Shown here: positions 1,426 through 52,500 of the stretch, one piece after another
Layout of the letters: the number at the start of each line of letters is the position of its first letter
Position numbering within the stretch: the first letter of the stretch is position 1
Position numbers and translations under genes: made by a program
NCBI GenBank assembly: GCA_029718625.1
Contig: CM056385.1
Coordinates: forward strand, 22,529,282 to 22,593,281
Length of the DNA: 64,000 nucleotides
Source: Synaphobranchus kaupii
Taxonomy: Eukaryota > Chordata > Actinopteri > Anguilliformes > Synaphobranchidae
Direction: 5' to 3'
The notes under the pieces: model-generated
Database searches by the model: none
The model's input: the letters and a program-made list of their open reading frames with translations, nothing else
What the model was told of the DNA's origin: nothing

Positions 1426-1472
1426 GGGGTGTGGATTTTGGGAAATTTCTGAAGGTCATTCTCCGACATGTT
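1426..1472 (-). CDS. lcp2: lcp2 exon 3, residues 48-63
   Basis: 47 bases between a TGCAG acceptor and a GTGAG donor. It encodes NMSENDLQKFPKIHT and ends in phase 2. It matches the LCP2 signature NLTENDIQKFPK almost residue for residue, which is the strongest evidence for the gene call. Confidence 0.82.
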
Positions 1473-3319
1473 CTGCAAAGAATGGAGGATAGTCAGACCA
1501 CAGATTTTATGATAAAATAAGATTTAAAAAAATAATAAGTTAATTTCCTCACTCTCCCTCCCTTCCCTACCCCTCCTCTTTCCCTCCATATTTTCTCAAC
1601 TTCTAATGTCTGGCAGTCATTGGGCCTCATTCACCAATCACTCTATGAACAAATTTGTTCTTAAGACTTTCTTTAAAATGTTTTTACAAACATTTCAGGA
1701 TTAACTGATGTTTGCATTCTGAGCTTCTGTTCTACCCAAGAAAAAATCCCAAATAAGAAAACATTGGTCAATGCCAGAATGTTTATAAAAACGTTTTAAA
1801 GAAAGTCTTAAGAGCACATTTGTTCAAAGAATGGTTGGTGAATGAGGCCCATTGATATTAATTAAATCTCTGAGAGGAGAGAAAATGAGACCAAGAGGAC
1901 ATAGTCAAGTAGCACACGACAAAACTACAAAACTAAGTTGTCCTCATCAGTAGTTTTCTGGCATTGAAATTCTCTCTCTCTCTCAGCAGAGATGAGGAGG
2001 AACTGTTCAGGGTGGATGGGGGGGGGGGGGGGGGGGGGGGGTTCTTGTGGTGGTGCTGGTAAGGGCTATCACTTCCTCAGTGACTGGGTACCCAAAGACC
2101 CATGGGACTGAGCTGGCTTCACTCCGCTATGTGTCCTGTCTGTTGCATCCTGACTCACATGTTACACTGTCGAGAGTCATGATTGGTTCACATTCTACCT
2201 GCCAGCACCACAACAGCGAATTACTACTCCTGTAGTAGACTGCTATTATCACTGTTATTAAAATGATTGTTGGTACTTCTTTCCAATTAAACTACTTTTT
2301 ATATGGATGTTTACTGACTTGGTTCATACAAGAATTTCCAACATTTCACATTGACACCTTTCCATAATCTTGACCCATTTCTAATTGTATATTATCTATT
2401 GAGCATGTTGAATATTGAATGTTGAATAAGCCTTTTGAATTTAGGATACACAGTCATTTCAGATGTTATTGTTCCTTGTTTCTGACATTGTTACTATACA
2501 TAATTAGCTTAAGTGGAATCATGTGTCTTTGACAGTTCCCACCAGCATGTCAATCAATTAGCTGTATTTATATTTTTTCGCAGAACAAAACCAATGAAGG
2601 TACAATGAAATGCGCAGTGTTCGCTCACACTTGGCAAAATGAACAGTTGAAAACGCTGCATTAAAAGGCGAGTCCTGATCATTTGAGTGTGCAGTTTTAA
2701 AGTCGGAGGCAGCCGTAGAAAGTATTCCAATTCTGTCAGTGAATTTACAACCAATGGAGCCCCTGTATTGGCATATGAAACGCCTCTCTAGGCATTATGG
2801 ATATGCATAATTTGGTTGAGCGAACAAAAGGTTGAATCAAGGTACAGTAACATACAGTATAGTGACATATGTGAAGGTGTACAGCAGCATATCTCTAATA
2901 AGTGCCTTAGCAGGTGTCATTCATGAGGGGGGTCAACTCACCAGGAACCTTCGTCCGGTCATGCCGCACTTCATGATGACCTTGTCACAGCCTCCCAGGT
3001 CCATCTGGGAACACACGGTTTACAAGAAAGTGAACGTTTAATTAAGGTGTACAGTTCTAATGTGATGTGCGTGAGCTTTCGGGTGCCATGCAATATTCAA
3101 TTGCATTAGTGTATATAATTGTAAATCCATGCTGACGACAAAGCTTAACGCTCAGCATATGACATGAAGCTATTGAAATATCACCAAGGGGGGGGGGGGG
3201 GGGGGGGGGGGGGATGGGTGAGGACACCTCATAACGCTTACCTTCCTCAGGTAGTCTGCCAGGTGCGGAGAGTTCCAGCTCATGACCTCCGCCTTGGACG
3301 GCAAACTGTCGAAACTCAT
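1426..3319 (-). CDS. lcp2: lcp2 (SLP-76) adaptor, N-terminal SAM-domain exons, partial
   Basis: Three coding exons in consistent phase: 3242-3319 (starts at ATG 3317-3319), 2942-3004 and 1426-1472. The first 62 residues align with the SAM domain of human LCP2: MSFDSLPSKAEVMSWN, then PHLADYLRK, then MTGRRFL, then NMSENDLQKFPK, where the human protein has NLTENDIQKFPK. LCP2 is the cytosolic adaptor that, once phosphorylated downstream of the T-cell receptor, nucleates Vav, Nck, Itk and PLC-gamma signalling; the SAM domain mediates oligomerisation. All splice sites are GT-AG (GTAAGC, GTGAGT and GTGAG donors; CAG acceptors). The acidic, proline-rich and SH2 regions are not visible and should lie left of the window or in the gap. 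Family assignment rests on exon layout and SAM similarity. Another SLP-76-family or SAM adaptor is possible but less likely. Confidence 0.8.
1622..1850. mobile_element. palindromic MITE, PIF/Harbinger-like, in lcp2 intron 2
   Basis: Terminal inverted repeats start GGGCCTCATTCACCAA and extend imperfectly about 65 bp into each end. Both flanks carry ATT (1619-1621 and 1851-1853), fitting a 3-bp target duplication. GGG...CCC ends with a 3-bp duplication point to PIF/Harbinger. The short length (229 bp) and lack of an ORF make it non-autonomous. Confidence 0.65.
2018..2041 (+). repeat. poly-G run (24)
   Basis: Uninterrupted guanine homopolymer in lcp2 intron 2. Its exact length may be unreliable in the assembly. 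Confidence 0.95.
2942..3004 (-). CDS. lcp2: lcp2 exon 2, residues 27-47
   Basis: 63 bases between a CCCAG acceptor and a GTGAGT donor, phase 0 at both ends. It encodes MDLGGCDKVIMKCGMTGRRFL, the middle helices of the SAM domain; human LCP2 has a DCEKAVKKYHIDGARFL-like segment here. Confidence 0.8.
3188..3213 (+). repeat. poly-G run (26) in lcp2 intron 1
   Basis: 26 consecutive G on the plus strand, so a poly-C tract in the lcp2 transcript about 28 bases past the exon 1 donor. Possible sequencing or length artefact. Confidence 0.95.
3242..3319 (-). CDS. lcp2: lcp2 exon 1 (coding), residues 1-26
   Basis: 78 bases, starting at ATG and ending AAG before a GTAAGC donor in phase 0. It encodes the start of the SAM domain, ending PHLADYLRK. 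The donor lies about 20 bases from a 26-base G run in the intron. Confidence 0.8.
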
Positions 3320-3581
3320 TGCGTTCCCGGGTCGTCCACCGTTTGAGCCTGAGAGGAAAGCCCCGGCGCGGGCAGAAGAAGAGGGAACGACAAGTAAAAC
3401 ACTCGGGCGAAAGCGAAAGAGCGTCTGACGGTGGCGCTTCTCTGCGTCTCGCTGCACATTTATTCCCCGCCCGTCACGGCGGACGCTGAGGCCTTGAAGA
3501 AAATGGCTCCCCGCGCCTTGCTGCTACGCCCCTGTCTATTCTTAATCCGGCTGCGAGTGAAGGAAGTGCAGAGCCCGGCCA

Positions 3582-3902
3582 GTGTTCGCAGCAAGAAGAG
3601 AGGAGGAGGGCTTTAAGTCCACGTACCACAGAGACAAGGACAGGGTTACGCCACCACGAGCACGGAAAACGACAAGAGGTGGGAACAAAAGAGTGAGGCG
3701 GAAGGCCGCTAACCGTGCTAAATCCTTCCTCTTCCTCAAAGTCACGCCTGGTGTGAAGGTGCGGGGTCCCGTACAGCGAGCCGGTCAGAAACGCGTCCAG
3801 AAAAGAGGCCGGGATAATCCATATGTGAAATATGTGAAAATGTATCGTTCAGAACACAAGAAAGCATCGAAGACAAGGCGCAGGCCGTCAAGAGCTGTCT
3901 GA
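3582..3902 (+). CDS. hypothetical basic 106-aa ORF, divergent from lcp2
   Basis: Open frame of 106 residues, very rich in Arg and Lys, beginning MFAARREEEGFKSTYHR. I recognise no domain. It sits in a GC-rich stretch just upstream of lcp2, in divergent orientation. GC-rich promoter DNA often leaves such frames open by chance. Alternatives are a divergent non-coding transcript or simply lcp2 promoter DNA. Confidence 0.15.
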   Translation: MFAARREEEGFKSTYHRDKDRVTPPRARKTTRGGNKRVRRKAANRAKSFLFLKVTPGVKVRGPVQRAGQKRVQKRGRDNPYVKYVKMYRSEHKKASKTRRRPSRAV

Positions 3903-6900
3903 AGATTCTGAGAAAAAGAAAAAAGAATAACCAAAAAAAAAAACTTCCTCCTGCGCTTCCTGTTGAGAGCAGCAGAGGCAAATAGGGGAAGTACAGTTCC
4001 TGTGAGCAGTAATTACATTAAACACTATGTGCGGAGTGTCATTGTTGGGCATAGAAACCACAGAATTTACAATCGATTCCATCTATTCTGAAACAAATAC
4101 TTTTCTGTTGACTATAGGCCGCCTGCACCTTCATAGGCCACAGGGCCTTATTCATCTTTCAAAGATAACAGTCTTTGTATTTTTCAGCTTGTACATGTTT
4201 ATCCTCCTAAGACCTGGCAGTTCATTTTATTTCCCCTGTAAGGGACATGAGTCTCCGGGCTTAATCTCAAGAACCATATTCTACTATGCTGAAAGCTACA
4301 CTACAAAGGACATTCAATGAAAGTAAAATAAATAATATATTTACAAATATTTTCACTGCAACATGCTTTTGTCATCCAAGACACTTGTATTATGCAACAA
4401 AAAATGTAATGCTTCTAACCTTTTTGGGCAGGTCTAAGAAGGTTGAAGTTTATTCTAAAGAGTTTCATTCACACAAGCACAGCAGCAGCAGATCAGCTTT
4501 ACCTGTATTCAAGCTTCAACACACAGGGCCTTTCATCCTTGTGTCCTGTCTCAGCCATTATGCTCAGGGTGCTAGCAGTCTAGCACAACTGTTTTCATAA
4601 TGTAACAATCATGGCCGTCAGGCAGGGTTACATCACTTGGAGGATAATGGCAGCAGCATATTCCGCCTCACTCTGGCATTGGACCTTTTGATAATGTGTT
4701 AATTTCTCTCTCTGCCATGCAGAGTGGGAGGACAGCGTCCGATTCCTGTTTCCGGAAAGTCAACTCTTCACCTCTTTTAAAACTCCTCGTTCATCGCAGT
4801 ATTATTGACTTTACTCTTTATTTTTACTTTCTCACAGTTATAATATGTATGGTGGTATGTGCACAGGAACTTTAATTTGTTGTGCCCCCATCATCAACGG
4901 AGAAACTCGACAGCCAGGTATTAAATTTGGGGGTTGATTGAGACTATACCCCAAACACAGAAGCAGATTCATTCCCTTTTACTACATGGGTGGCCAGTCA
5001 GCTATGGGAAGGAGTACGGCAGGCTGCAAATGGGAGATTGACATTGTGCTACAGTGAGTAGGGTTTTTGAGAATACTGCATTTGTGTTCAGGCCACAGCG
5101 AGATCACAAGAGTGACAGATCACAACCAGATCACATTGGTTTCACAGGCTACAAACTGAAAAAGCTTGTGAACCTGCGAAAACTCTCAGACGACCTGTTC
5201 AAATGGACTCCTATCAGTTATTTGTGCGGCCTATTCTGGTTAGCCGTGCGCGGCGATCTCGGGTCACACAAAACAAGAATACAGGCCATGCATAACTATT
5301 TAACGGGTAACTGCTTTAGAACACAATTAATAAATGAATCTAATGTAACCTGACCAATCAAGTTTTGAGCTCGTCAGTGTTCTAGTAAGGTAATCAATGG
5401 AATAATATAATACTATTACATATTTAGCACGGTTATTACACATTTCAAGACTTGTGCTTTGTCTTGCTGGTGATTCATCTTGAGCCACTGGGCAATTTTT
5501 AAGTCTCTTGTTTTATAAAATAGTGCATTTTGATCATGTCAAGATGGCTGACTAGGCAATATAGTCTTTTGTGGTGGGACATTGCATTAAAGTGATGCAT
5601 AGAATGCTCCTGATAACAATGAAGAATATGTTCAATATGTGTCAAGTTAACAGACGCAATATTATATTGCAAATGATCTCAGCAAATATGTCAAATAATA
5701 TATTCTTTGTCAGAAACATAATTTATAATCCCGCTTTAGTTTACCTCAATAGTTCAGCCCATCAGATAGAAGTAGGTATCTGAGCATAAAAGTAAATAGA
5801 CTATAACTGAAAACGCATGTCAATTTCCATAATATATAATGTCATAGCCATGCTCAAAGGGTGTATAATTACAGTTGAGAGAAAGTGGAATCATTTTTGC
5901 ATGGGGACGTAAATTACACATTTTTGAACTCACGCCCACAGTGGGAAATTTTATGACAACTTGTACCGCGAAATGCAGTGCCTCCACAGCAACTGCTCTG
6001 GTTCCCACAACAACAACAACACCAAAAAACTTTATTAAATAACGGTCAATTGACCGATGTAGCTAGTTGTCCTCCTGCTACAAAGAACAGGAGAAGAATT
6101 CAGCCGGAAAAAGAGTTTAAATCTTATTTTTTTCTAGCAGATCTCAGTGTTGTCACAGGAACACAGAAAGTTACTTGCACATGCCCACATCTACAAAGGC
6201 CTGCAGACTTGCCGTTCATGCATGGCGGTATGCGGAGAGACATGCGTGCACCACTGAGCAGCTGAGCAGTTTCCACTTCCTGGAGACAGTTGCCGTACAA
6301 GTTTGTATTGCAGCATAGTTGACCTTTGTCAGGTTACACAAGCTCTGTGAAATAAGGGGAGATGGGCGTATGTGTTTTATGAATAAATGTTTGGGCACGG
6401 AAAAGTATGACATGATAATCAGATAGTGGTTTTCTCAGGGTTGTTTTCTTGTTTTGCATTTACTAAAAAAGTGAAATGTGTTCACGGTGTCAATGTGTAC
6501 TTTGCCAATATGTTACAACCTTCGAACCCAATTCTTCTGTAAAAATTTCCCCAAGAAAATGTGAGATGGGGAACGAAAATGAGAATTGAAGACAGAAGAC
6601 AAGAGTTTCGAGGGATCGTGAGACCGAGCAGGAGCGTGGGCCCAGCTTCGCTTCCCTTCCTGTAACACAACTCAGGAGTTTCACTTCCAGTTGAAATCCA
6701 TGCACACAGGCGCTGAGTCAGAAGTTAAGCCATTTACTGGCTGACAGACAATGAGGAAAACTTCCATCCTCCATCTGGTTTATGTCCTCACCACCTCCCC
6801 TGTCTGTTCAACATCACTCAGTGATGGGGTTACAAATTTTGATCAGTACAAGCTGACAGCTGGAGTCTGAATCCAAGGATTTAAAAACATTTTAATCAGA

Positions 6901-8562: not shown

Positions 8563-8904
8563 TGTGGTAAGATCGAGTGCCACCCTCGTGGAAGAACAGG
8601 CAGTACACAGGAGTTGTAATTTCAATAGACAATTTATTTGTCCTTTGGGATATTCGCTGGCTACGGTACTATCGGACACTTCTCCGTCCTCTCCTGTCAT
8701 CGGCCAGCCCCCTTTCATCTCCTGCTTCCCTCCTTTAAAGCCCAGGCTCACTGTCAAAGCAATCAGGCAACAATCCAACAATCATTCAATTGTTAATTAT
8801 CGTGTTGTCCTGACTAACTCATGACAGCTGTGGTTCAGGGTCCGAGAGCCGCTCCGCTCACTCTCTCTCTGCAAGCAGAGGCTAACCATGCCCACCCTGC
8901 CACA
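8563..8904 (-). repeat. 3' LTR of the Gmr1-like element
   Basis: 342 bp, same length as the 5' LTR and about 98 percent identical by eye. It is preceded on the minus strand by a G-rich polypurine tract. Confidence 0.9.
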
Positions 8905-8929
8905 TACCCCCACCGCCCGACTTAGGCCG

Positions 8930-9430
8930 GGGTGCCATCCGGCCGATGACCAAGCCCCCCGCCCCCCCCTCGAGGCGAGAGAGGAAGTCCGCCACCACCA
9001 TCTGCGCCCCCGGCCTATAAACCACCTTAAAATTAAACGGCTGAAGAGCCAGATACCAACGGGTGATTCGCGCGTTGGTATCTTTCATGCGGTGGAGCCA
9101 CTGGAGGGGGGCGTGGTCCGACCAGAGGGTGAATGCGCGGCCCAGCAGGTAATACCGGAGGGACCCAACCGCCCACCGGATAACGAGGCATTCTTTCTCA
9201 ATGGTGCTGTACTTCGCCTCCCGCTGTGAAAGTTTGCGGCTTATGTACAGCACCGGGCGATCGACTCCCTCCACCTGCTGGGTCAACACCGCCCCCAGCC
9301 CTCTGTCCGACGCGTCTGTCTGCAGGGTGAAAGGGAGAGAAAAGTTAGGTGTGAACAACAGCGGCTCCCCACAGAGTGCTTCTTTTACCCTCTCAAACGC
9401 CCTCCGGCACGACTCCGTCCACTGGACCAC
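8930..9430 (-). pseudogene. pol: RNase H domain, C-terminal end of pol
   Basis: TDASDRGLGAVLTQQ, YSTIEKECLVIRWAVG and SDHAPLQW are RNase H motifs, and ADFLSRLEGG closes the polyprotein. It overlaps the end of the reverse transcriptase frame, marking an indel between them. Pol ends close to the 3' LTR, as expected when integrase is not last. Confidence 0.85.
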
Positions 9431-10690
9431 TCTGAGGCACCTTTTCGAGTCAAATCAGTCAAGGGGCTGGTCAGCTCTGGAAAGGCAGGAATAAACCTCC
9501 TGTAGTAACCGGCCAACCCCAAGAATCTCCTCACCTCTTTTTTTGTCTTGGGCCGGGGGCAGGTCGCAATCGCCACAGTTTTATCCACTAGAGGCCGCAC
9601 CTGTCCACTTCTCAAGTGGTACCCCAAATACCGTACCTCCGCTCTGCCAATTGCACACTTCCTCGGGTTAGCCGTGAGCCCCGCCCGCCTCAATGAGTCG
9701 AGCACCGCCCCCATATGCCGCATATGCTGTGCCCAGTCGCTACTGTGGATGATAATATCATCAATATAGGCTGCAGTATATGCGACATGCGGACGCAGCA
9801 CCCGATCCATAAGGCGTTGGAATGTGGCTGGAGCCCCGAATAACCCGAATGAAAGTGTCCGAAATTGGTACAAACCATCCGGAGCGGAGAAAGCCGATTT
9901 TTCCTTGGACTCTGGCGACAAGGGAATCTGCCAGTAGCCCTTGGTCAGATCCAGTGTCGAAAAAAAACGAGCCGTGCCCAGCCGATCCAAGAGTTCATCG
10001 ACCCTAGGCATTGGATAAGCATCAAACCGTGAAACTTCGTTCACCTTTCTGTAATCCACACAGAACCGGGTAGACCCATCTGGTTTCCCTACCAGAACAA
10101 TGGGGCTACTCCAGGCACTGTGTGACTCCTCTATTACGCCCAAGTCCAGCATGGCCTTTATTTCTGCCTGTACCAATTTTTTTTTGTGTTCCGGCAGTCT
10201 ATACGGATGGGAACGTACCGTCACTCCCGGGGCGGTTTCGATATAGTGGGTTACCAGATTAGTGCATCCGGGTAGGGGAGAAAACACATCCGCAAACTGC
10301 TTTTGCAACAGGGCAAGGTCTGCCTGCTGGTTTGGCGAGAGATGGCCATCCGAAAGGGGCGGGGTCTGATTGGGTGAATTTGGTACCTCCGGCCCCAGCT
10401 CATCTTTCTCCTGATCCACCGTCACCAGCGAGACAGCCGCTACCTCTTTCCAAGCTTTTAATAGGTTCAGACGGTAGATTTGTTTTGCTCCTTCCCTATC
10501 CGAAAGCACCACCTCGTAGTCTACCTCCCCTATTCGCCGTGTGACCACAAAGGGCCCTTGCCACTTGGCGAGCAATTTTGTGCTGGAGGTTGGAAGTAAT
10601 ACCAGTACTTTATCTCCCGGTGACAATTGTCTGAGTTTCGTCCCTTTATTATAGTGCGTTTGCTGCCGCTCCTGGGCCTTGAGCAAATTC
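9385..10690 (-). pseudogene. pol: reverse transcriptase
   Basis: Part of a 539-residue open frame (9385-11004). The motifs run KPDGSTRFCVDYRKVN, STLDLTKGYWQIPL and the catalytic YIDDIII near 9750-9770, then the connection region with RRFLGLAGYYRRFIP. The frame is lost near 9430, where RNase H continues in another frame. Confidence 0.88.
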
Positions 10691-10699
10691 TCCCGTGAT

Positions 10700-11403
10700 A
10701 CCCTCCCCAGTGTATGGAGTTTTGCTCGCAGGTCCATGACGTACTGTATTTCATTTTTACTGGAGCTTGGACCATCCTCCCAGGTTTCTTTAGCGAGATC
10801 CAAGACTCCCCGGGGTTTTCGCCCGAATATTAGTTCAAAGGGAGAAAATCCCGTGGAGGCCTGGGGAACCTCCCGCACTGCAAATAGTAAAGGGACTAGC
10901 CATTTATCCCAATTCCGACTATCCTCGTGAACAAACTTCCGAATCATTGACTTCAAAGTCCTATTAAAGCGCTCAACGAGCCCATCCGTTTGGGGATGGT
11001 ACACGCTGGTTTTAATTTACTGAATGCCCAATAAAGCATACAGTTCGTTTAGTGTTCGTGACATAAACGATGTGCCCTGGTCCGTCAGAATCTCTTTCGG
11101 GAATCCGACACGGGAGATGATCTGAAACAGTGCCTGCGCCACACTCTTAGCCGAGATATTTTGCAGCGGAACTGCTTCGGGATACCGGGTCGCATAATCC
11201 ACCAGAACTAATACGAATCGGTATCCCTGAGTGCTCCGTTCAAATGGCCCGATGAGGTCCATAGCCACTCTATCAAACGGGACCTCTATTAATGGAAGTG
11301 GCTACAACGGCGCTTTTGGAATGGCCGGGGAATTCACTAATTGACATTCCGGGCACGACGCACACCACTGACGTACGTCTGCCCAAATGCCCGGCCAATA
11401 AAA
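10700..11403 (-). pseudogene. pol: integrase, interrupted by stops
   Basis: The zinc-binding cysteines continue in QWCASCPECQ. The catalytic DDE residues appear in MDLIGPF, LTDQGTSF and HPQTDGLVERFNRTL. A GPY/F-like module (GDKVLVLLP to KWQGPFVV) follows. TAG at 11302-11304 and TAA at 11017-11019 break the frame. The integrase lies upstream of the reverse transcriptase, contrary to ordinary Ty3/gypsy order. Confidence 0.85.
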
Positions 11404-12273
11404 TCAGGCCATTATACGGTTGAGTGTCTTTTCGTATCCTAAGTGTCCCGCCATGGGGTTATAATGAGCCGCCTGGAAAACCATTTCCCTGCGGCTTTTA
11501 GGTACCAACAACTGGGTATTTTCTTCCCCTGTCTGAGCGTCCCGACACACTCGATATAATCTATCTCTAATAATCGAGAAATATGGGTGAGAAAGAGCTG
11601 CCTCAGGTCGTACCTGTTGACCATCAATACGCATCACCTGATCGAAGGCAATGCGTAAGGTGTCATCCCGAGACTGTTCGAGTGGGAAATCCTCCGTGGG
11701 GGGAAACACCGAAACCAGGGGCTCCGTCCCCCCCTCGACCGCGTCGGCTGACCCTGCGTCATCACCGTCAGCAGCACACACCTCACCTGGCCCTACCGGT
11801 CGGGATCGCACCTCCCACAGCTTCCCTGACACTTTACGAAACCCCGCCCAATCAATGCCCAAAATCAAGGGGTGCGACAGCCGGGAGCTAACCGCGGCTT
11901 TAACTATATGCATTTTTTTGTTATAATAAATTTTGACCGGCACTACCGGATATTTGTGCACATCACCATGCACGCACCTAATTGACACCCATGGTGCCTC
12001 AACCAATGCCTCGGGTCGAACCAGGCTTTGCCGAATCATGGACTGCATAGCCCCCGAATCCAACAACGCCCGGTGTTCACTCCCTTGCACCCTTACCGGG
12101 ATACAGTACGCCCCCTCTGGATCGTGAGCGAGAGAGGGCGGCCCGGCAACCCGGACCACCTGCCCCACTTCCATCATTGGACAGTCGCGGCGTAGGTGAC
12201 CGAGCTGACCGCACCGCCAACACCCCGGTCCAGACGCCTGCGGAGCCCTCTGTGGGTCGGACCCTCCCGCCAC
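11404..12273 (-). pseudogene. pol: zinc knuckle, aspartic protease and start of integrase
   Basis: Open frame of 289 residues. The zinc knuckle comes first, then the aspartic protease active-site motif ALLDSGA (the DSG codons at 12060-12052), followed by a spacer and the integrase zinc-binding histidines in AAHYNPMAGHLGYEK. It ends at a TGA (11404-11406) inside the integrase N-terminal domain, so the polyprotein is interrupted. Confidence 0.8.
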
Positions 12274-13089
12274 CGAGCCTGAGCCTGTAGAGGGAGGGAC
12301 AAAAAAAGGAGAATTAATTTGGGGTGGGTTGTAGCGGGGTCTCGGGGAAAAGGGCCTGGGCCCGTGCGAGGAGGGGGTTTCCTCCTCGGAGCCGGTTCCG
12401 GCGGCCTTTGTGGTGGGCTGCTGGGCACAGTGGCCAGATGGTCTTCGGCCACGTCCACGGCCAGCTCCAGGCTGGTGGGTCGGTGGCAGCGAACCCAGCT
12501 AGCTGTCGCCTCTGGCAGCCCGCCCATAAATGCCTCCAGCAGGACCTGCTCCACTACCCCCGCGGCGGACCGGATGTCTGGCTGCAACCAGCGCCGAGCC
12601 ATGTCAGTGAGCCGCTGGGCGAACGTGAACAGCCGATCCCCCACGGCCCAGGGATGCTTCCCGGAACCGGCGCCGTTGGTCCTCGGGACTATAGCCCAGC
12701 CGATCCAGGATGGCCCTCCTGACATTGTCGTAGTCAGCGCGGGCTACCGCCGGCAACCCATGCGCCACCTGCTGAGCTTCCCCCGTTAACAGGGGCAGGA
12801 GGCGGACCACCCACTCCTCTCTGGGCCACTGACACGCCTCCGCGGCCACCTCGAAACTATCCAGGAAGGCCTGGGCGTCGTCATCCGCGGTCATCTTCAG
12901 CAATTGGATCTTCATCCGGGTCCGGAAGGGCTGATCCCGGGATCCTGCCCCCCCGACGGTGGCTAGCTGTCGTAGCGCCTCCATCTGGAGGGTGGCCTGT
13001 GCACGCAGAGCCTCCATTTGCTCTGCGTGTACTGCAGCTTGTCTCTCCTGCATCACCGCCATTGCCTCCAGCATATGGGCAAGTGCCAC
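12174..13089 (-). pseudogene. gag: gag-like region of the LTR retrotransposon (frameshifted)
   Basis: Begins MALAHMLEAMAVMQERQAAV at 13089 and runs through a coiled, Gln/Glu-rich N-terminus into a capsid-like segment. The frame shifts near 12640 and again near 12290. The last part carries a CCHC zinc knuckle, CWRCGQLGHLRRDC, at about 12222-12181. Structural protein of the retrotransposon particle; broken here. Confidence 0.75.
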
Positions 13090-17452: not shown

Positions 17453-18985
17453 CACTACTCACAAAAAGTTTAGGGATATTTGGCTTTCGGGTGAAATTTA
17501 TGGAAAATGTAAGTTCACGCTACAGTGATATTATACGTATCATGAAAGTAGGGCATTTAAGTAGAAGCATGCAATGGTGATTTCCTCATCTCAAACAATT
17601 TATTGAAACAAAAGCCAACAACAGTGGTGGGTATACCACAACAAAAATGTCAATGTCTCAATAACTTGTCATGTGCCCTTGAGCATCAATTACAGCTTGA
17701 CAACGATGTCTCATGCTGTTCACAAGTCGACTTATTGTCTGCTGAGGCATGGCATCCCACTCTTCTTGAAGGGCGGCCCTCAGGTCATTGAGGTTCTGGG
17801 GTACAGAGTTACGAGCCTCTACACGGTGAGTCAGCTGATCCCATAGGTTTTCTATGGGATTCAGGTCTGGAGAAAGTGCAGGCCACTCCATTTGAGGTAC
17901 CCCAGTCTCCAGCAGCCTTTCCCTAATGATGCGACCTCGATGAGCTGGAGCATTGTCGTCCATGAAGATGAAATTAGGCCTGTGTTGTTCATGCAGGGGC
18001 ACAATGACTGGATTAATGATGTTATTCAGGTAGTATGGGCTTGTCACTGTACCATTCACAAAGTGTAGGGCCGTTCTGTATTGACTAGACACACCTGCCC
18101 ACACTGTAACACCGCCACCACCAAAGGGTCGTCTGGTGACAACAGTGGCTGATGCATAGCGCTCTCCTTGACGTCTCCAACATCGTTGGCGGCCATCATT
18201 TCTGCTCAACGTGAATCGACTTTCATCAGAGAACAGCACTGAGGCCCACTGGTCCCTCGTCCAGCGTAAATGCTCCCTGGCCCATGCAAGACGATGACGC
18301 CTGTGCCTGGTGGTGTGGTCAGGTACCCTTGCAGGTCGTCTAGCACGCAGACCACGCTGATGTAAACGGTTTCGAATGGTCTGACGTGACACTTGGGTGC
18401 CTCTCACCTCCCTTAAATGTGCCTGGAGTTGAGTGGCATTCATCATCCGGTTCCGCAGGGCACTGTTCACAATGAAGCGGTCATCAGTGTGGGATGTGGC
18501 CAAAGGACGTCCACTTCTATGCCTTTCTGTGACTCTTCCAGTCTCTCTGTATCTCTGTTGCAACCTGCTGATGACACTCTGTGACACTCTAAGCTCAGTG
18601 GCCACTTCCCTCTGAGAACATCCTGTTTGAAGCCTCGCAATGGCGAGGTACTGTTGATCAATTGTTAGGTGTCGTCTTGGTCTCATGATGTCAAAATGTG
18701 AACAGCATGATGAAGAGGACTGTTTAAATACCAATTCTAATTGAACCAGGAAATTTATTGGTCAATTCATGGATCAAACACCTGTTGTGAATTTTGCCGT
18801 TCAGCTCCTTGTTAGAGAACAGCAAGTTGTGCAAAAAGTACTGAAACATTGAATAGTTGGACATGTGCATTCAAAAGTTTAGAGAAGGTCAAATTAATTT
18901 CACCTGTAAAGGTTATAGTGCATTTTAGGTTCATCCTGAAATTTCACCCCGAAAGCCGAATATCCCTAACTTTTTGTGAGTAGTG
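17453..18985 (-). mobile_element. Tc1-like transposon, copy 1, apparently intact
   Basis: 1533 bp with inverted ends CACTACTCACAAAAAGTT, extending imperfectly to about 45 bp, flanked by TA on both sides (17451-17452, 18986-18987). It carries an uninterrupted transposase. A second copy at 49788-51316 differs by a handful of substitutions and 4 bases of deletions, so both are very young. It lies in an IK-copy intron. Confidence 0.93.
17658..18686 (-). CDS. Tc1/mariner transposase (DD34E), intact
   Basis: 342 residues from [15 protein letters not shown], the usual length for Tc1 transposases; an upstream in-frame Met at 18734 is possible but less likely. The N-terminus holds two helix-turn-helix DNA-binding segments ([19 protein letters not shown] and the [12 protein letters not shown] region) separated by a GRPR-like RSGRPLAT hook. 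The catalytic triad is seen in [17 protein letters not shown] and NPIENLW, with 34 residues between the second Asp and the Glu. Function: cut-and-paste transposition into TA sites. No stop or frameshift is seen; whether it is expressed is unknown. Confidence 0.92.
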
Positions 18986-40500: not shown

Positions 40501-43500
40501 CAATTTTCATATAGGCTATAATGGAGAAACTGCTGCTACCAAACTAAGGGGTTTGCACCACCATTACACACAGCCTCACCATTATACAGCACCGCCGTCA
40601 CAACCAGCCCCCGCCAGGGATTTTGGGCCCCATGAAAATAACTCACATTGGGCCCCACCACGCCATCCCTGCGCAATTACTATAAGCACACCACACCAGG
40701 CTTGCAACTCTCTTGTAGTCTAATATTTACTGACAGCGAGCTATGAAAATATGTATAATACTGTGCAGACATGCATGCAACATTCTGTATACAGTGGAAC
40801 TCACTACCCTCTATAGGAAATGTGCTAAAGCGAATTATGGTCATTTGTTCTTGCTTATATATATATCTTAGTTTCATGTTCAATATGGTAGTTAACAAGC
40901 TGTCAATCAAATCTACACTTGCCCTCCAGGGAAGTCCTGCACTTTGCTCCGTGGTCTTTGCACTTGAGTTTACATTGTAAGTCACTGGAAAAGAGCTTCT
41001 GGAATGGAATGTTTCAAAGGAGGCTAAATGCTTGATGTAAAATGATAACATCTGATGGGTATATAGAACCTGTGCCGAGAACCGCAACGGCTCCCTTTTG
41101 GAACAATTCTGCCTCTGGCATGCCAGTCAGGAAGAAACAAACCTTTTTAGGTGGAGCCGTCTCCTCTTTGCTCTCCGAGTCGTCCGTGCTCTCGCTCTCC
41201 GAGCTCCCTCCCTTCTTTGTTGAAGCAGGGGCTTTGGGTGTAGCTTTAGCCTGGCTGGGCTTGGGCGGAGTCGGGCGAAGCTTCTTGGGTGGAGCCTCTG
41301 CCTCGCTATCTGACGGGTCCGTGCTCTCGCTCTCCTCCTCGGCTGGTGCTGAGGCCTTGGGTGTTATTTTGCTTGAGGGTGTGGGCGTGGCCTTGGACTT
41401 TCCAGGAACTGGCTTTACCGAGGTGACCGGAGTGGCCTTCGTTTTCTAGAAGACATAAGCACATCTGTGTACCCCTCGTTTTGAGATGTCATCATATCCT
41501 GAGAGTGATACGGCAGGGTAGGGCCTGGGAGTGGCATCAAGGATTGCAGCTTAATTTTATATCCGTACTATTGTTTTTAAATGGCATGTCATATAACTGG
41601 AAATTCCAATGCAATGGATTCACTGGGGGACTAATTAATAGCATTTCGCCTATAACTTGACAGGATGTTGCCTAATGTCTTTTGCTCGCTCTCTCTGTTT
41701 CTCTTTCCCTGTTGGTCTCTCTCTGTCTCTACCCCCCCCCCCCCCCCCCACATCCCTACCACCATCTTTTAACCTAATACCATGCCCATATGTTTTTAAG
41801 TCCCTTACGTTAGGTATCAATTTTATGATTCATCAGTTTGAACGAGTTTGCGCGCCTGAAGACTATTTCCCCATAATGCAACTTCCAGAGTTATTACTAG
41901 AAATGATAGCTAACGTGAGCATGCCGCCTCCTAAAAAGAGAAAAAGCTCTAACACGGGGGATGGGCAACCAAATATTAACTTTTTTTTCCTCAGATGTTC
42001 ATGATGTGATAGCCTAAGGTTAGAGAATTGTCAACATTAATGTATAAGGTGCTGCATAAAACCTTGGTAAAGCTGCAAAGTAATGCCAGATTAATTAAAA
42101 ATGTTAATTAAATCTATTTTTATTGAATGTCTTAAAAAAATCTTTGTCATAGAAAAGTTTGTGACATTGTTAAAGATGCTCTGTATTGACGGGATGTTGC
42201 CTAATGTCTTGTGCTCTTTCTCTCTCCCTTTCTCTGTCTCTCTCTCTCTCTCTCTCTGTCTGTCTCTCTCTCTCGGCCTCTCTCTGCCCCCCCCATCCCT
42301 ACCACCACCTTTTAACCTAATACCATGCCCATGTTGTGTTTAAGTCCCTTTTACAGAGTGTAGGTGCCCCGCCAAATACTGTTCATAGACACTTCTGGAC
42401 AAGTCAGCCCTATTCATGTGATTATTTAGATTGGCAATCCCGTGGAAGGTAAACCCTGTCCGTAAGGTTCCCCGGCATGGACTGACAGCGGTCATAACAT
42501 GCAGTGCTATCATTAATTGTTCCGGTCTTCACATGTTGCTATGAGTGTTAATGCCTAAGCCCTCAACTCCCACAGTCTTCTCCTGCCATTCCCTAAAGGA
42601 CACGCACAGACACAAGTGCAAACAAGTGCAACCGGTCCCACACCCTGCCGCGGGAAGCTAGCCTAAGCAACTGCTGTCAGCAGTCCACCCAATTGGATCC
42701 AGGCTAAAGGAGCCAAAATGGATTCCGACAGGGAAAGAGGAGCTTCCCTGCCCGTCAGAAGAGAGGCCCTGACTGCACTTTGCCACCTGTGGATCGTCCA
42801 GCTTCCTGTCACAGGAGACAGAGCCCCCACACGCCGTGCAGAACTGGTAGAGACACTGTGGAGTAGGTTGCATTTCACTCACGCAATTGCAACACTAATG
42901 GAAAAAGCACTGCATGTTACCCAAGTCCAGGGAACTTCTGGTCCCTTGCCAGTCTAGATACCCGGACACTGGAGAAGGAAGAGACTGAACCAGGGTGTCA
43001 TAACAGCAGCGACACAAAAGAGTGTCTAATAGAGATATGACTCTAGATCACAAAGGGACTATTAAACTGGGCATGGACTAAATGTTTTAAAAATGGTTGG
43101 TGAACCATTTGGACAGTTGTTTTTGTTGTTAGCAGGTAACTGCATCTTCAATGTCCAAATGTGTAATGTGATTCCTATTTGGTGATGTAAGAATAGGTTT
43201 TTAGCAGGTGCATGCACCTATTCTTACAAGAGAGGGATGTAGGATATCTAATATTTCCCCCCTTCTCTCTATCTCTGTCTCTCTCTCTCATTCTCAACCC
43301 CCCATCAAAGATAAGCCAGTCTTTGTCATAAATGACCCCTCTCCCCCCCCCCCCCCCCTCCCCCACACCTTAACCCAATCAGGACAGGGATGGTCTTCCT
43401 GTGGAGGTATTTTATGAGTGTACCGCAGAAAAAGAAGTTAGTCAATTGTGGAGTTTGTGTGAAGAAGTCATTCTTTTTGGTTCCTCGTGCGTTTCCTTTT

Positions 43501-46500
43501 TTTCCTGTTCCGCTGGAGGGTAAATAATTTGACAATTTTTGGCTTATCTCTCTCTTTTCTGGTATATTTCCTAATTAATGTCTGGTTTAATGTCTTCACT
43601 TTTGTAAATTATAAGTAGTCAGCCTACATTCCTTAGTGAATGTATGATTTCAGCTCATTATTCCAATTGAATGTTTTTCATTTAATAAAATTATTTAATC
43701 TCAAGACCTGATTTAGACTTTGTTTTGGCTTGTTGGTTGATCCACCAGGTTACTGTTCGACTTACCTGTTAACGAATTTGGCGATTTAATTGATGATTGT
43801 CATTTTTAATAATTATTATTAAACTAAATCACGTAAAGCTTATTTTGAATGTAGGTTAAGTGAGGGGTTCTAGCACGCAATATCGCTTGTGTTCAGTATT
43901 CAGAGTGCTGAACGTTTTAACAAGGGCATTGACTGTTAAAACCGCTGGATTCAGATTATACACATTTTACCTAGTCCTCACTTACCCGACATAATTGGAG
44001 GTTCCACCGAGATAGGTTGTCCTATAGCATACTAAATTTTGCTATTGAGTAAACTGCGGTAAACTCTGAGACAAGTTCAAATCTTTTTCTAATCGACTGG
44101 TCTTAGATTTATTGATTTTATTTATTTATTTAAATTTTTTTACATTATTATGGCATACCAGACAAAGAGAGAGATGTCTCATTTACCCTCCACTGCTAAC
44201 CTACCAGCATTCCCTGGCCAGTCAAGGCTGGATCAGCAGTGGTATCTCATGTTATCAGAACGGCAATATTTGATAGCCCAGTGCCCAAAATTTGCAGAAC
44301 AGCTCAAGGCAATGGACCAGCTGAAGGAGGAGGCCCTTTACAACCTGCGGACTGAGTATTTGGACTATCTGATTTCTCCAGATAGTGATGAAACCAAGCG
44401 CAAGATTGTCCAAGGGATAAGGTCGTACCTAGAGAAAAGACAACATTTTCTCTACCTCTGGCGGTCAAAGCAGGCATGGGAGGAGGTAAACCAGATGTGG
44501 AAACTGGCTTGGGAAAAGCACCACTCTAAGTCAGGAGTTACTGCCAAACCAGTTTCTTCTGTGGCAGTCCAGCATGCACTGGATGGAGCAGTGCATGGCG
44601 CCATTCCAGCCATAACCCAGGCACCACCCCCCACCGAGGACAATACAGCACTCTCCATTGACTCATCCCCACCCCCTTCAGGCTTGGACAATTCTGTGGA
44701 TTTTGTCACCTCCACAGACAATGTAGCCGCCCCCCTGGTGAGCCCCCCTTCCCTGGAGGAATTTGGGGGAAACAGCTCTGTGTCTTGTATCACACCAGCC
44801 ACCACAGAGGAGGTGACCCCACAGGACGTGGAATCTGCTGCTGCAGTCCTCTCAGCTGAGCCAGGTGAGGAGACCGTCGAACCCCGGGAGGCAGAACCTG
44901 CTACTGCAGACACAGCAGCCCAGCCTGGTGAGGAGACCGTCAAACCCCTGGAGGCAGAACCTGCTACTGCAGACACAGCAGCCCAGCCTGGTGAGGAGAC
45001 CGTCAAACCCCTGGAGGCAGAACCTGCTACTGCAGACACAGCAGCCCAGCCTGGTGAGGAGACCGTCAAACCCCTGGAGGCAGAACCTGCTACTGCAAAC
45101 ACAGCAGCCCAGCCTGGTGAGGAGACCGTCAAAGCCCTGGAGGCAGAACCTGCTACTGCAGACACAGCAGCCCAGCCTGGTGAGGAGACCGTCGAACCCC
45201 TGGCGGCAGAACCTGCTACTGCAGACGCAGCAGCCCAGCCTGGTGAGGAGACTGTTGAACCGCAGGACGCGGAACCGGCTTCTACAGGCCCATCAGCCCT
45301 GCCAGGTGGAGAGGTCTACGCACCCCAACAGGTGGAGTCAGCCCCCACAGAAAAGTCCACCCAGGCCGAGGACCCCACCCCACCCCTTGTGGACTTTTCT
45401 TCCCCTCCTGCTGCTTCCCCTCCTGCTGAATCCGGGGAACCTCTGTCTGCTGCACAGACAGAAGGGGTGTGCTCTGTGGACTCTCCCACTTCCACAGTTC
45501 CTGTGATGGAGGAGATAGGGGGACTTCTGCGAAAGTCTCGCTCCCCTATCAGAGCTGTAAAGAGACCATGGGAGAAACGGAGCAGGAAGCCAACCCCCGG
45601 CCGTTTTACGACTCCTCTGGCCCTCAAAGTCTCCGCCAGAGTGTTGTCTTGCAATCCAAAGCAAGATGAAAGCAGCCAATTTAGCACAACAATTTCCCCC
45701 ACCCTCATCTCTCCACCCCCGAGCCACACCTGCAAACTTCGCACACACACGTCATCCAGGGAGAGTGCAAGAGCCCTTTTCCGACATCAGAAGTGTTCGG
45801 AGAGCAGTGATGGACTGCATGCCTACGAGCAACGATCAGCCCAACTGCCCAGAGAGGGAACCAAAGCCAAAACTGGCATAGACCCCTGGACAGAGATGAG
45901 ACGGGCGTGGTTAAGGGGCATCCACGTGCGGAAGAAGCAAGATGACAGGATGCCTCCTGTCATCCCGGTTTGCTGAACGCTGTGGCCCTCCGCAGCCAAA
46001 GGACTGCCAGTAACCACACTGGGGTTCTAGGAGGTAAAACTGGCACTCTGTCTGCCCCTGCCCCCCCCCCCCCCTCACCACCCCCCCACATCCCTACCAC
46101 CACCTTTTAACATAAGACAATGCCCATGTTTTTAAGTCCCTTTTCGAAAGTGTAGGTGCCCCCTCCAATGCTGTTCCTGGGCACTTGTGGACAAGTCTGC
46201 CCTATTCAGGTGATTATTTGGACTGGCAATCTTGTGGATGGTAAATCCTGTCCGTAAGATTCCCCTGAATGGACTAAGTGCTTATAACATGCAGTGTTCC
46301 CCTCTTCACATGTTGCTGTGAGTGATAAGGCCTAAACCCTCAAGTCCCACAGTCTTCTCCTGCCACTCCCCGAAGGACCCCCAGAGGCACAAGTGCAACC
46401 GGACCCATACCCTGCCGCGGGAAGCTAGCCTAAGCGACTGCCGTCAGCAGTCCACCCAACTGGACCCGAGCTCAAGGAGCCAAAACGGATTCCGACAGGG

Positions 46501-49500
46501 AAAGAGGTGCTTCCCCGCCCGTCAGTAGAGAGGTCTTGACCGCACTTTTCCGCCTGTGGATCGTCCAGCTGCCTGTCACAGGAGACAGAGCCCCCCGCAC
46601 GCTGTGCAGAATTGGTAGAGACACTGTGGAATTAGGCCGCCTTTCACTCACACAGTTACAACATTAAGGGGAATAAGCACTGCATGTTATCCAAGGAAGT
46701 CCAGGGAGCCTCTTCCCTTGCCAGTCCAGATACCCTGACACTGGAGAAGGAATTGACTGAACCAAGGTGCCATGACAGCAGTGACAAAAAAATAAATAAA
46801 AATGTCTGCACCACACCGGATCATCACAATGGGACTAGTAAACTGGACATGGACTAATTGTTTTAAAGATGGTTAATGAACCATTAGGACAGTTGTTTTC
46901 ATGCAGCTATCATTGTACAATGATATTTATAATGTCCAAATGTGTGGTTGTTCTGATGATGGAATGATAGGCTCTTAGCAGCTGCATGCACCTATCGTTC
47001 CAAGAGAGGGAATGACGGGATGTTGCCTAATGTCTTGTGCTCTTTCTCTCTCCCTTTCTCTGTCTCTCTCTCTCGGCCTCTCTCTCTCGGCCTCTCTCTG
47101 CCCCCCCCCCCCCCCCCCCCCCCATCCCTACCACCACCTTTTAACCTAATACCATGCCCATGTTGTGTTTAAGTCCCTTTTATAGAGTGTAGGTGCCCCG
47201 CCAAATACTGTTCATAGACACTTCTGGACAAGTCAGCCCTATTCATGTGATTATTTAGATTGGCAATCCCGTGGAAGGTAAACCCTGTCCGTAAGGTTCC
47301 CCAGCATGGACTGACAGCGGTCATAACATGCAGTGCTATCATTAATTGTTCCGGTCTTCACATGTTGCTATGAGTGTTAATGCCTAAGCCCTCAACTCCC
47401 ACAGTCTTCTCCTGCCATTCCCTAAAGGACACGCACAGACACAAGTGCAAACAAGTGCAACCGGTCCCACACCCTGCCGCGGGAAGCTAGCCTAAGCAAC
47501 TGCTGTCAGCAGTCCACCCAATTGGATCCAGGCTAAAGGAGCCAAAATGGATTCCGACAGGGAAAGAGGAGCTTCCCTGCCCGTCAGAAGAGAGGCCCTG
47601 ACTGCACTTTGCCACCTGTGGATCGTCCAGCTTCCTGTCACAGGAGACAGAGCCCTCACACGCCGTGCAGAACTGGTAGAGACACTGTGGAGTAGGTTGC
47701 ATTTCACTCACGCAATTGCAACACTAATGGAAAAAGCACTGCATGTTACCCAAGTCCAGGGAACTTCTGGTCCCTTGCCAGTCTAGATACCCGGACACTG
47801 GAGAAGGAAGAGACTGAACCAGGGTGTCATAACAGCAGCGACACAAAAGAGTGTCTAATAGAGATATGACTCTAGATCACAAAGGGACTATTAAACTGGG
47901 CATGGACTAAATGTTTTAAAAATGGTTGGTGAACCATTTGGACAGTTGTTTTTGTTGTTAGCAGGTAACTGCATCTTCAATGTCCAAATGTGTAATGTGA
48001 TTCCTATTTGGTGATGTAAGAATAGGTTTTTAGCAGGTGCATGCACCTATTCTTACAAGAGAGGGATGTAGGATATCTAATATTTCCCCCCTTCTCTCTA
48101 TCTCTGTCTCTCTCTCTCATTCTCAACCCCCCATCAAAGATAAGCCAGTCTTTGTCATAAATGACCCCTCTCCCCCCCCCCCCTCCCCCACACCTTAACC
48201 CAATCAGGACAGGGATGGTCTTCCTGTGGAGGTATTTTATGAGTGTACCGCAGAAAAAGAAGTTAGTCAATTGTGGAGTTTGTGTGAAGAAGTCATTCTT
48301 TTTGGTTCCTCGTGCGTTTCCTTTTTTTCCTGTTCCGCTGGAGGGTAAATAATTTGACAATTTTTGGCTTATCTCTCTCTTTTCTGGTATATTTCCTAAT
48401 TAATGTCTGGTTTAATGTCTTCACTTTTGTAAATTATAAGTAGTCAGCCTACATTCCTTAGTGAATGTATGATTTCAGCTCATTATTCCAATTGAATGTT
48501 TTTCATTTAATAAAATTATTTAATCTCAAGACCTGATTTAGACTTTGTTTTGGCTTGTTGGTTGATCCACCAGGTTACTGTTCGACTTACCTGTTAACGA
48601 ATTTGGCGATTTAATTGATGATTGTCATTTTTAATAATTATTATTAAACTAAATCACGTAAAGCTTATTTTGAATGTAGGTTAAGTGAGGGGTTCTAGCA
48701 CGCAATATCGCTTGTGTTCAGTATTCAGAGTGCTGAACGTTTTAACAAGGGCATTGACTGTGAAAACCGCTGGATTCTGATTATACACATTTTACCTAGT
48801 CCTCACTTACCCGACAGTATGCAATTGTGGAGTCTCGATTATAATGTGGCATATCTAATTGAAAAATTTAATATCAAAATAAAATCTGTGATCAAATGGA
48901 AGTGTGATTTTATGTGACAGCATGAGTAGAGCTAGTAAGCATAGGTACGATAATTTCAGTCCTGACAAACATCTGGAACTCCCGGCAGAAACTAAGAGAC
49001 ATCCAATGAAACAGTTTGTAGTAAAACGTCAGTTTGTTCAGTGTAAAAGTATATACCCTACACTGTAAAAAAAAACACCATAAAGAAATGGCAGCAATGT
49101 CTCCAGTGAAAAACAAGTTAATGAACAGGTAAAACTGTATGAATCCTGTTATTTTGCTGTAGCCTATAAATCCTGTTATTTAATTGTATAAATCATTATT
49201 TTATGGGATGACTAAATACTTATTGCTGTTATTCTATATGACCTTGACAGTGTTAAAAAAAGTTAAATCCTCCAACAGTTTTTTTTAGTGTACTGTGGAA
49301 AAAACAATTTTTTAAGTATGTTTGTAAAAGAAAAAAAAAAATTTGAAAACACAGTAAAATCATGGAGAATATTCATCTAATTGTCACCTCCTAAAATAAC
49401 ATGATTTATACATTTCTTCCCAGTCATTAAATGTTTTTTCACTGGCAACATTGCTGCCAGTCTTTTCGCTGCTAGTCTTTTTCTTACAGTGTAAAGATTC

Positions 49501-52500
49501 TTAAAACGCAGAATTTATCGTCGCTGTTTGCGGCTGGAGTAATTTAAATAATGACTCTTAGTTGATTACCAGCAAAGTATGGAATTATAACAAGTGCAAA
49601 TACTTTGGCTGCACCCGCAAAATAACACCCCTAAAATGAACACTATGTGTTTGAAACTGTAATTACTACAAGTACGAATACGTACCTTGCCAAAAATAAT
49701 AAATTTGTTGTGTTAGGCATAAAGACAAAAACATTGCATTTAAAATAAAATAACTTTTTCAATGAAATTCAAATGCTATCATACATACACTACTCACAAA
49801 AAGTTAGGGATATTTGGCTTTCGGGTGAAATTTATGGAAAATGTAAGTTCACGCTACAGTGATATTATACGTATCATGAAAGTAGGGCATTTAAGTAGAA
49901 GCATGCAATGGTGATTTCCTCATCTCAAACAATTTATTGAAACAAAAGCCAACAACAGTGGTGGGTATACCACAACAAAAATGTCAATGTCTCAATAACT
50001 TGTCATGTGCCCTTGAGCATCAATTACAGCTTGACAACGACGTCTCATGCTGTTCACAAGTCGACTTATTGTCTGCTGAGGCATGGCATCCCACTCTTCT
50101 TGAAGGGCGGCCCTCAGGTCATTGAGGTTCTGGGGTACAGAGTTACGAGCCTCTACACGATGAGTCAGCTGATCCCATAGGTTTTCTATGGGATTCAGGT
50201 CTGGAGAAAGTGCAGGCCACTCCATTTGAGGTACCCCAGTCTCCAGCAGCCTTTCCCTAATGATGCGACCTCGATGAGCTGGAGCATTGTTGTCCATGAA
50301 GATGAAATTAGGCCTGTGTTGTTCATGCAGGGGCACAATGACTGGATTAATGATGTTATTCAGGTAGTATGGGCTTGTCACTGTACCATTCACAAAGTGT
50401 AGGGCAGTTCTGTATTGACTAGACACCTGCCCACACTGTAACACCGCCACCACCAAAGGGTCGTCTGGTGACAACAGTGGCTGATGCATAGCGCTCTCCT
50501 TGACGTCTCCAACATCGTTGGCGGCCATCATTTCTGCTCAACGTGAATCGACTTTCATCAGAGAACAGCACTGAGGCCCACTGGTCCCTCGTCCAGCGTA
50601 AATGCTCCCTGGCCCATGCAAGACGATGACGCCTGTGCCTGGTGGTGTGGTCAGGTACCCTTGCAGGTCGTCTAGCACGCAGACCACGCTGATGTAAACG
50701 GTTTCGAATGGTCTGACGTGACACTTGGGTGCCTCTCACCTCCCTTAAATGTGCCTGGAGTTGAGTGGCATTCATCATCCGGTTCCGCAGGGCACTGTTC
50801 ACAATGAAGCGGTCATCAGTGTGGGATGTGGCCAAAGGACGTCCACTTCTATGCCTTTCTGTGACTCTTCCAGTCTCTCTGTATCTCTGTTGCAACCTGC
50901 TGATGACACTCTGTGACACTCTAAGCTCAGTGGCCACTTCCCTCTGAGAACATCCTGTTTGAAGCCTCGCAATGGCGAGGTACTGTTGATCAATTGTTAG
51001 GTGTCGTCTTGGTCTCATGATGTCAAAATGTGAACAGCATGATGAAGAGGACTGTTTAAATACCAATTCTAATTGAACCAGGAAATTTATTGGTCGATTC
51101 ATGGATCAAACACCTGTTGTGAATTTTGCCGTTCAGCTCCTTGTTAGAGAACAGCAAGTTGTGCAAAAAGTACTGAAACATTGAATAGTTGGACATGTGC
51201 ATTCAAAAGTTTAGAGAAGGTCAAATTAATTTCACCTGTAAAGGTTATAGTGCATTTTAGGTTCATCCTGAAATTTCACCCGAAAGCCGAATATCCCTAA
51301 CTTTTTGTGAGTAGTGTATGTATACACTACATACTGTATGTGCAGGGTTTTGCATTAAGATTTTCTTACGGTGTTTGATAAAAGACTACTTTTCAAAGTT
51401 ACTGTTTGATAACCCCATCCCCATTTTGTGGATGAACCCCTCAGACGGCGTGTTGATTGACAGAGGGTCACAGAGAAGAACAAGCTCGGAACAGAAGCAC
51501 TCTGCCTGTCTCAGGTGGGACTCACCTGTGCATACGTCACCTCCTCGCTGTCACTATCTGAACTCTCAGAGTTACTGGCTGCAGTGGGCGTGGCTGCAGC
51601 CTTGCTGGGTGGAGCCTTTGTGAAAGCTACCTTCTCCTGTAAGCCAAACGGACACATGGAAAAAGAAGACACAGAAGTTAAAAGTGGCTTTATCTATACG
51701 ACACATTTCTATAATTACTCACAATATTTCCTATATTTCCATAAAACTGTCATGATTGGAGAAATAAGTTCAGTCGGCTTTAGTGTTGTTATTGGTCATT
51801 GAAATAATACTCCATGCTTAATAACAATGCAAGTTAATAAGATGTTGTGTTTATTAAACACTGTATTTTATTTTACTGTACGTTTATTATGTAAAACAGG
51901 TAAAACTATACATTTCCCGGAACATAAACTCCTTGTCCATAAGTTTGCAAGTGCGAGTGTGATATGCAGAACTACCAAAGATCTATGATGCAAAATGTAA
52001 GCAGTGTACCCTGTTGTCCTTAAGTCCGTCCAGACTCGAGTTGCATACATTTTTGGCCGAGATCTTGTATTGACGACGGGAGAGTCAAACCAACTCCGTA
52101 AAGTCTTCTTCAGCACATCCCAAAGACTTTCAAGGTAAGGGGTTAAGGTCAGGACTCTGGTGGCCAATTCATGTGTGAAAATGATTCCTCATGCTCCCTG
52201 AACCACTGTTTCACAATTTGAGCCCGATGAATCTTGGCATTGTTGTCCTGGAATATGCCCATTGATGGGATAACCTGGTCAGTCAGTATATTCAGGTACT
52301 CAGCTGACTTCATTTTATTGCTGCATAATGTTGCTGAGCCTAGACCTGACCAATTGAAGCAACCCCAGATCATAACACTGCCTCCAGAGGCTTGTAAAGT
52401 GGGCACTATGCATGACGGGTGCAACGGTGACTTTGTTTTTGGCCAGGCAGTGTATGTAGCCTAATCACTCACTCTTGTACTTCAATAAAACATTACTTCT

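Follow-up and report, generated by a model that had tools for sequence, protein, structure and literature searches.

The long terminal repeats (LTRs) of a retroelement family with hundreds of copies in the deep-sea eel Synaphobranchus kaupii occur in two lengths, 754 bp and 1.8 kb, which probably reflect a choice of plus-strand start in a gag-only-like, non-autonomous element: synthesis would usually begin at the downstream of two polypurine tracts (PPTs), PPT2, and sometimes at the upstream one, PPT1, and either resulting end would be integrated. The copy at the centre of the analysis lies in a stretch of 64,000 nucleotides (the window; C10:22529282-22593281 of the 1.50-Gb S. kaupii assembly), whose numbering is used for all positions in it. 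The element spans 42187-48816 with GTAT on either side, and its direct TG...CA repeats, short target-site duplication (TSD), primer site and PPT make it an LTR retroelement, by class an ordinary non-autonomous one. A preliminary description, made from the letters of the window alone, had given 42183..48820, a GTAT duplication and TG...CA LTRs, all of which proved exact, and had listed a PPT (now PPT1, AAGAGAGGGAA), a single open reading frame (ORF) of 608 codons and an 18-base primer site, which were likewise recovered; the site, TGGAGGTTCCACCGAGAT, corresponds to the 3' end of tRNA-Gln.

Both LTRs of the window copy read TGACGGG...CCCGACA, and their alignment comprises 1781 matches, 20 mismatches and 2 gaps (7 columns). 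Fifteen of the 20 mismatches fall in a CT/C-rich tract at 42249-42286 and both gaps in CT or C runs, which leaves five substitutions (ca. 0.3%) outside the tract, the same number that had been reported before. The insertion is thus recent, presumably well under a million years old if commonly assumed fish rates are applied. The description of the element as young, pol-less and dependent on borrowed enzymes agrees with these data: no reverse transcriptase or integrase coding region is present in the window copy, as judged from the ORF list and Pfam (other copies were only mapped with window segments), and none of the six other element-overlapping ORFs of at least 80 amino acids (aa) in it has a pol-like Pfam match, one of them giving a below-cut-off match to ZSWIM1-3_C within a repeat.

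The preliminary description missed an internal module, A', a second copy of LTR positions 101-1051 (module A) situated directly upstream of the 3' LTR. The two copies share 764 matches against 151 mismatches, i.e., 83% identity in ungapped columns and 81% by BLAST. A' and A each end in a hairpin and AAGAGAGGGA, followed by TGACGGG, the start of the 1.8-kb LTR and of its CT/C-rich head (H), or by TGTAGGA, the start of a segment called the core. It is at the TGTAGGA point that a complete 754-bp LTR begins; the LTR of the window copy, flanked by a matching TSD, begins immediately after PPT1. The junction between the PPT and the U3 region (the upstream part of the LTR) fixes the first base of an LTR in reverse transcription, and a copy that starts right after PPT1 and carries a TSD is the product to be expected from priming at PPT1 with subsequent normal integration. 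The inverted end of U5, the downstream part of the LTR, is TGTCGGGTAAG, to which TGACGGG corresponds in six and TGTAGGA in five of seven bases (by-eye count).

The 1.8-kb LTR claimed for the window copy is real, and it is a rare form, not the usual LTR of the family. In an LTR search 40 of 3255 candidates were scored, two of which were the window's own LTRs; long stretches were fetched around 20 of the other matches and the remaining 18 were read at their 5' ends only, all having been selected as good matches, not randomly. The 5' LTR was in range in 17 of the 20 fetched stretches, and in each of the 17 it consisted of the 754-bp core, followed by the leader and the ORF. All 17 two-LTR copies have a 3' end of the structure A'-PPT1-H-A-PPT2-core, with neither H nor A upstream of the 5' core, and a perfect 4-bp TSD lies just outside the core in 14 (in L009 it is mismatched, in L022 the 3' LTR is cut and L024 is masked). 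Each of the other 18 5' ends likewise begins with the core, so that 34 of the 35 other 5' LTRs are clearly short and one (L024, with the base before the LTR masked) is unreadable. The long LTR of the window is 95-97% alike to the ordinary 3' ends of other copies. A search with A, core and leader joined gave an end-to-end match only at the window among the 40 scored of 3196 candidates, the other top matches stopping at, just before or just past the core end, or within the core; there was no H start at C8:49175137 (with the ORF close upstream of A), C14:4180715 (masked) or C6:69007907. Copies are spread over many contigs, and their flanks and TSDs differ, which argues against segmental duplication, the alternative to transposition that had been proposed for checking.

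Counted genome-wide as exact words, there are 227 junctions of LTR and primer site, 460 H starts, 384 occurrences of PPT1 with H and 431 of PPT2 with the core; 384 of the 460 exact H starts thus follow PPT1. Two copies have additional features: L013 carries the ORF repeat with the 3' part of the ORF three times in tandem, and in L016 a tandem satellite-like array with units of ca. 90-96 bp lies beside a truncated copy (ca. 1330-3940 of the reverse complement).

The long form is not confined to the window. Solo 1.8-kb LTRs were found in L025 (C21) with the TSD AGCC and in L049 (C11) with the TSD CATG; a third solo LTR of the long form, L068, is flanked by TCTG at either end. These three solo LTRs with TSDs of their own argue that the long form arose more than once and, together with the window copy, indicate that long ends were integrated with a clean TSD at least four times. 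Places of each exact word were compared by eye among the first 100 listed, which for H starts cover C1, C2 and part of C3. Eighty-eight of these 100 H starts have the exact PPT1 before them and 12 do not; two of the 12 are PPT1 variants and ten adjoin flanking DNA, among them L061, L068, L071 and L066, the last with U5 sequence. In L071 (C3:59451876, minus strand) a long 5' LTR runs into the primer site; it is the one long form among 35 readable 5' ends of other proviruses, the remaining 34 having the core LTR. Of 50 exact primer-site junctions in the same stretch, that of L071 alone has an exact H no more than 2 kb upstream; the other 49 comprise, by exact words, 34 two-module copies, seven with PPT2 and no H downstream, three with H and no PPT2, and five with neither. 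Long 5' LTRs are accordingly of the order of one in 50, by a crude count that misses mutated words.

The number of modules varies: L009 carries three, and at four primer sites besides L071 PPT2 follows at 2.4-3.0 kb with no exact H, as in a one-module element (exact words). At three more primer sites H lies 8.2, 9.7 and 10.2 kb downstream; 151-base samples taken there represent A', the ORF and unrelated DNA, and pol was found in none of them. Homology of H to the first bases of the core, by unequal slippage at C tracts, was considered as well; it is suggested by the alignment taken as a whole, but 1089 of 5000 shuffles match the first 28 bases, and the homology is not claimed.

Both PPTs are preceded by a hairpin, in the window TGTAAGAATAGG/CCTATTCTTACA before PPT2. 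The PPT1 stem is GGAACGATAGG/CCTATCGTTCC in 17 of 20 rows and the PPT2 stem GTAAGAATAGG/CCTATTCTTAC in 19 of 22, the exceptions being either single changes, such as the U-G wobble of the window PPT1 stem, or arms that the script missed (L016); PPT1 of L019 is absent from the rows, having been missed by the search word. The hairpin has 12 pairs including an outer U-A pair, and three of the 12 are changed on both sides between the PPT1 and PPT2 rows, i.e., compensated. In 11 hand-picked rows of the 42 (six of them distinct, from two lineages), 97.2% of the hairpin cells are paired, compared with 88.6% in shuffles and at most 43.1% when the arms are slid; folding gave a z-score of -3.1 for PPT2 and of -2.0 for PPT1. 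In the two lineages compared, this suggests that the hairpin-PPT unit works as RNA at both places.

These features can be combined into the following mechanism. The RNA of a young, multi-copy element, supplied with reverse transcriptase and integrase by a partner and probably encoding one Gag-like protein, would end at its 3' side in two tandem modules, A'-PPT1-H and A-PPT2-core, each with a hairpin, a PPT and an LTR-like start. The usual plus-strand start at PPT2 would yield 754-bp LTRs and an occasional one at PPT1 LTRs of 1.8 kb, while integrase would accept both U3 ends, TGTAGGA and TGACGGG, each being near the inverted U5 end TGTCGGG. Since the TATA-like word (TATTTTA, 43408) and the poly(A)-like word (AATAAA, 43684) are located in the core, transcription would start there and both provirus forms would give the same RNA; LTR length would then be chosen anew in each cycle, and each long copy would represent a separate event.

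Several observations weigh against this mechanism. Reverse transcription was not observed and no pol-bearing partner was found. In L071, a single PPT2 lies only 2885 bp on and no exact H follows it or precedes it downstream of the primer site, an arrangement not expected under the simple model; L061 has a long LTR that extends to the core end but lacks a matching TSD; and six of the ten sites with H at a flank (L062-L065, L067, L070) have no core end at the expected distance, although one of them, L064, has the exact PPT2-core word ca. 1.1 kb on. The hairpin sample is small and hand-picked, two of the five hairpin measures are no better than shuffles (both-side changes, 123/500; further pair types, 230/500), and the folding of a longer piece around PPT1 hardly exceeds that of shuffles (z -1.2). 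The ratio of nonsynonymous to synonymous polymorphism (pN/pS) is 0.78 in the first part of the ORF and 0.87 in the last, indicating little constraint among young copies; the constraint may be weak, or masked by young neutral changes. Moreover, an older fragment ca. 380 bp before the element, ca. 80% identical to the LTR from its first base, begins TGACAGG... and then passes into unrelated DNA, which suggests that H has long been an element end and that the long form may be older.

The same fragment, the ten H starts at genomic flanks and the long 5' LTR of another provirus, L071, could point to an older or parallel heritable form, i.e., a sister lineage with H-A-core LTRs, the 754-bp LTR having arisen by takeover of PPT2. 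Such a lineage seems unlikely in view of the 95-97% likeness of the window LTR to ordinary 3' ends and of 34 of the 35 other readable 5' LTRs being short, and with TATTTTA and AATAAA in the core the RNA could hardly carry the length from one generation to the next. Joining of H-A to a 5' core after insertion, by recombination, gene conversion or misassembly, would suit L071 and L061, which look chimeric or unresolved; as a general explanation it is very improbable, since in the window copy, L025, L049 and L068 a matching 4-bp TSD abuts the very start of H, and recombination is not expected to create this four times. The use of two plus-strand starts could also be taken further, with the two hairpin-PPT units, each with an integrase-compatible LTR start, forming a maintained switch by which one RNA gives two heritable DNA forms and the upstream unit is kept by use; this extension is put forward tentatively, as a possibility somewhat less likely than its opposite.

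The product of the 608-codon ORF is probably Gag-like, judging from its position and from the precedent of the Bik elements of zebrafish discussed below; the preliminary description was right in calling the element young and enzyme-borrowing, and its term gag-like is still conjecture, as neither a fold nor a sequence match accompanies it. The protein has no match in Pfam or in the PDB at E<=1. In a search of 5.8 billion proteins (the whole-length search scored the best 7997 candidates) the whole protein gave three matches, the N-terminal part one and the C-terminal part two, all to unnamed predicted proteins of S. kaupii, so that the earlier label of an unrecognised element is fair; no relative was found in viral_contigs. 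Two of the predicted proteins, P0003, in which the repeat is joined to immunoglobulin (Ig) domains, and P0002, with a frame switch in the repeat, were taken as gene-model artefacts of other element copies; P0003, an Ig-domain protein with the ORF's 21-aa repeats, likely reflects an intronic copy included in a gene model. Eleven of 18 copies, among them that of the window, keep the frame open as far as the shared C-terminus.

A less favoured, though possible, identity is that of a captured or new protein serving some other function in cis, e.g., a disordered repeat protein. It would accord with the lack of Pfam and PDB matches, with the large middle part being repeat, and with the N-terminal 137 aa, modelled as four helices at low confidence (mean predicted local distance difference test score, pLDDT, 59), whose best PDB structure match is not significant (E 0.85). 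A Gag-like protein accords better with the ORF being the first after the primer site, with the helical N-terminus and the basic C-terminal stretch, and with the length of 608 aa, near the 617 aa given for Bik-1 Gag (PMC10996621).

Table 1. Features of the window element and an adjacent fragment (window positions)
Feature	Positions	Strand	Basis
5' TSD, GTAT	42183..42186	.	sequence comparison
5' LTR, long form (H + A + PPT2 + core), 1805 bp	42187..43991	+	LTR alignment, module mapping
H: CT/C-rich head, ~100 bp; in ordinary copies PPT1 precedes its start, TGACGGG	42187..42286	+	
A: module 83% identical to internal A'	42287..43237	+	
Hairpin immediately before PPT2 (stem TGTAAGAATAGG/CCTATTCTTACA), present again in 3' LTR	43186..43228	+	
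PPT2 copy AAGAGAGGGA within long LTR	43228..43237	+	
Core LTR, 754 bp, TGTAGGATA...CCCGACA; family's ordinary LTR	43238..43991	+	
Primer binding site TGGAGGTTCCACCGAGAT, complementary to tRNA-Gln	43996..44013	+	
ORF, 608 codons, with helical N-terminal region, tandem repeats of 63 bp (21 aa) and basic C-terminal region; likeness to gag by position only	44150..45976	+	
A': internal module copy	46081..47012	+	
Hairpin just 5' of PPT1	46960..47002	+	
PPT1 AAGAGAGGGAA	47002..47012	+	
3' LTR, long form, 1804 bp; PPT2 48057-48066, core 48067-48816	47013..48816	+	
3' TSD, GTAT	48817..48820	.	
Older fragment outside element, ~80% identical to LTR positions 1-164, from the LTR's first base	41658..41806	+	

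The surroundings of the element had been described as an intron of a treacle gene, which is plausible from composition and from a minus-strand border at 41445/41446 that resembles a splice site, while Pfam matches none of the three exon-like pieces. Other mobile elements are present on the minus strand of the window: several ORFs at 8882-13089 resemble, by eye, pieces of Ty3/gypsy, with a match to RVT_1 at 9385-11004; an open Tc1-like transposase of 358 codons (HTH_Tnp_Tc3_2, DDE_3) lies at 17658-18734, and one near-identical to it by eye, split in two ORFs, at 49992-51102.

Non-autonomous LTR elements of the LARD and TRIM types have neither pol nor coding capacity. The eel element shares with them the absence of pol and differs in keeping the 608-codon ORF. 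Lentiviruses and foamy viruses have a central PPT, a second one upstream of the 3' PPT that does not define an LTR end; the eel element also has an extra PPT in an upstream position, but PPT1 is followed by an LTR-like start that is found at integration sites. LTR elongation is presented as a possible outcome in 3' PPT mutants of HIV-1, at very low titre, in PMC8705849 and PMC13395811. The likeness is that a changed plus-strand start may lengthen the LTR end; in HIV-1 this concerns mutation and low titre, whereas in the eel the upstream PPT belongs to the family as such, and the extended ends were integrated with normal TSDs.

The closest counterparts by description are BHIKHARI-1 and -2, endogenous lokiretroviruses of zebrafish, which are gag-only, non-autonomous fish endogenous retroviruses with a predicted Gag capsid fold; no reference copy of Bik-1 is predicted to encode pol, and its Gag has 617 aa (PMC10996621). 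On that account the eel element resembles them in being a fish LTR element with a single ORF of ca. 600 aa (as in Bik-1), no pol, very recent insertions and need of a partner, and differs in that the predicted capsid fold is Bik's, the eel ORF having given no significant fold match. Neither a double PPT nor a pair of LTR lengths was met with in that paper, though no search aimed at them was made. What is unusual in the eel is a second, apparently usable plus-strand start and the two LTR lengths resulting from it; no natural long and short LTRs arising from two PPTs are described in the literature searched, which is no proof of their absence.

LTR boundaries are usually treated as fixed for a family, and the genome of S. 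kaupii holds two LTR lengths, apparently derived from the same RNA. They constitute a natural record of plus-strand start sites and of the ends accepted by integrase, and repeat annotation could split such a family in two. The ORF would add another gag-only-like element to those of fish, in an eel rather than in zebrafish.

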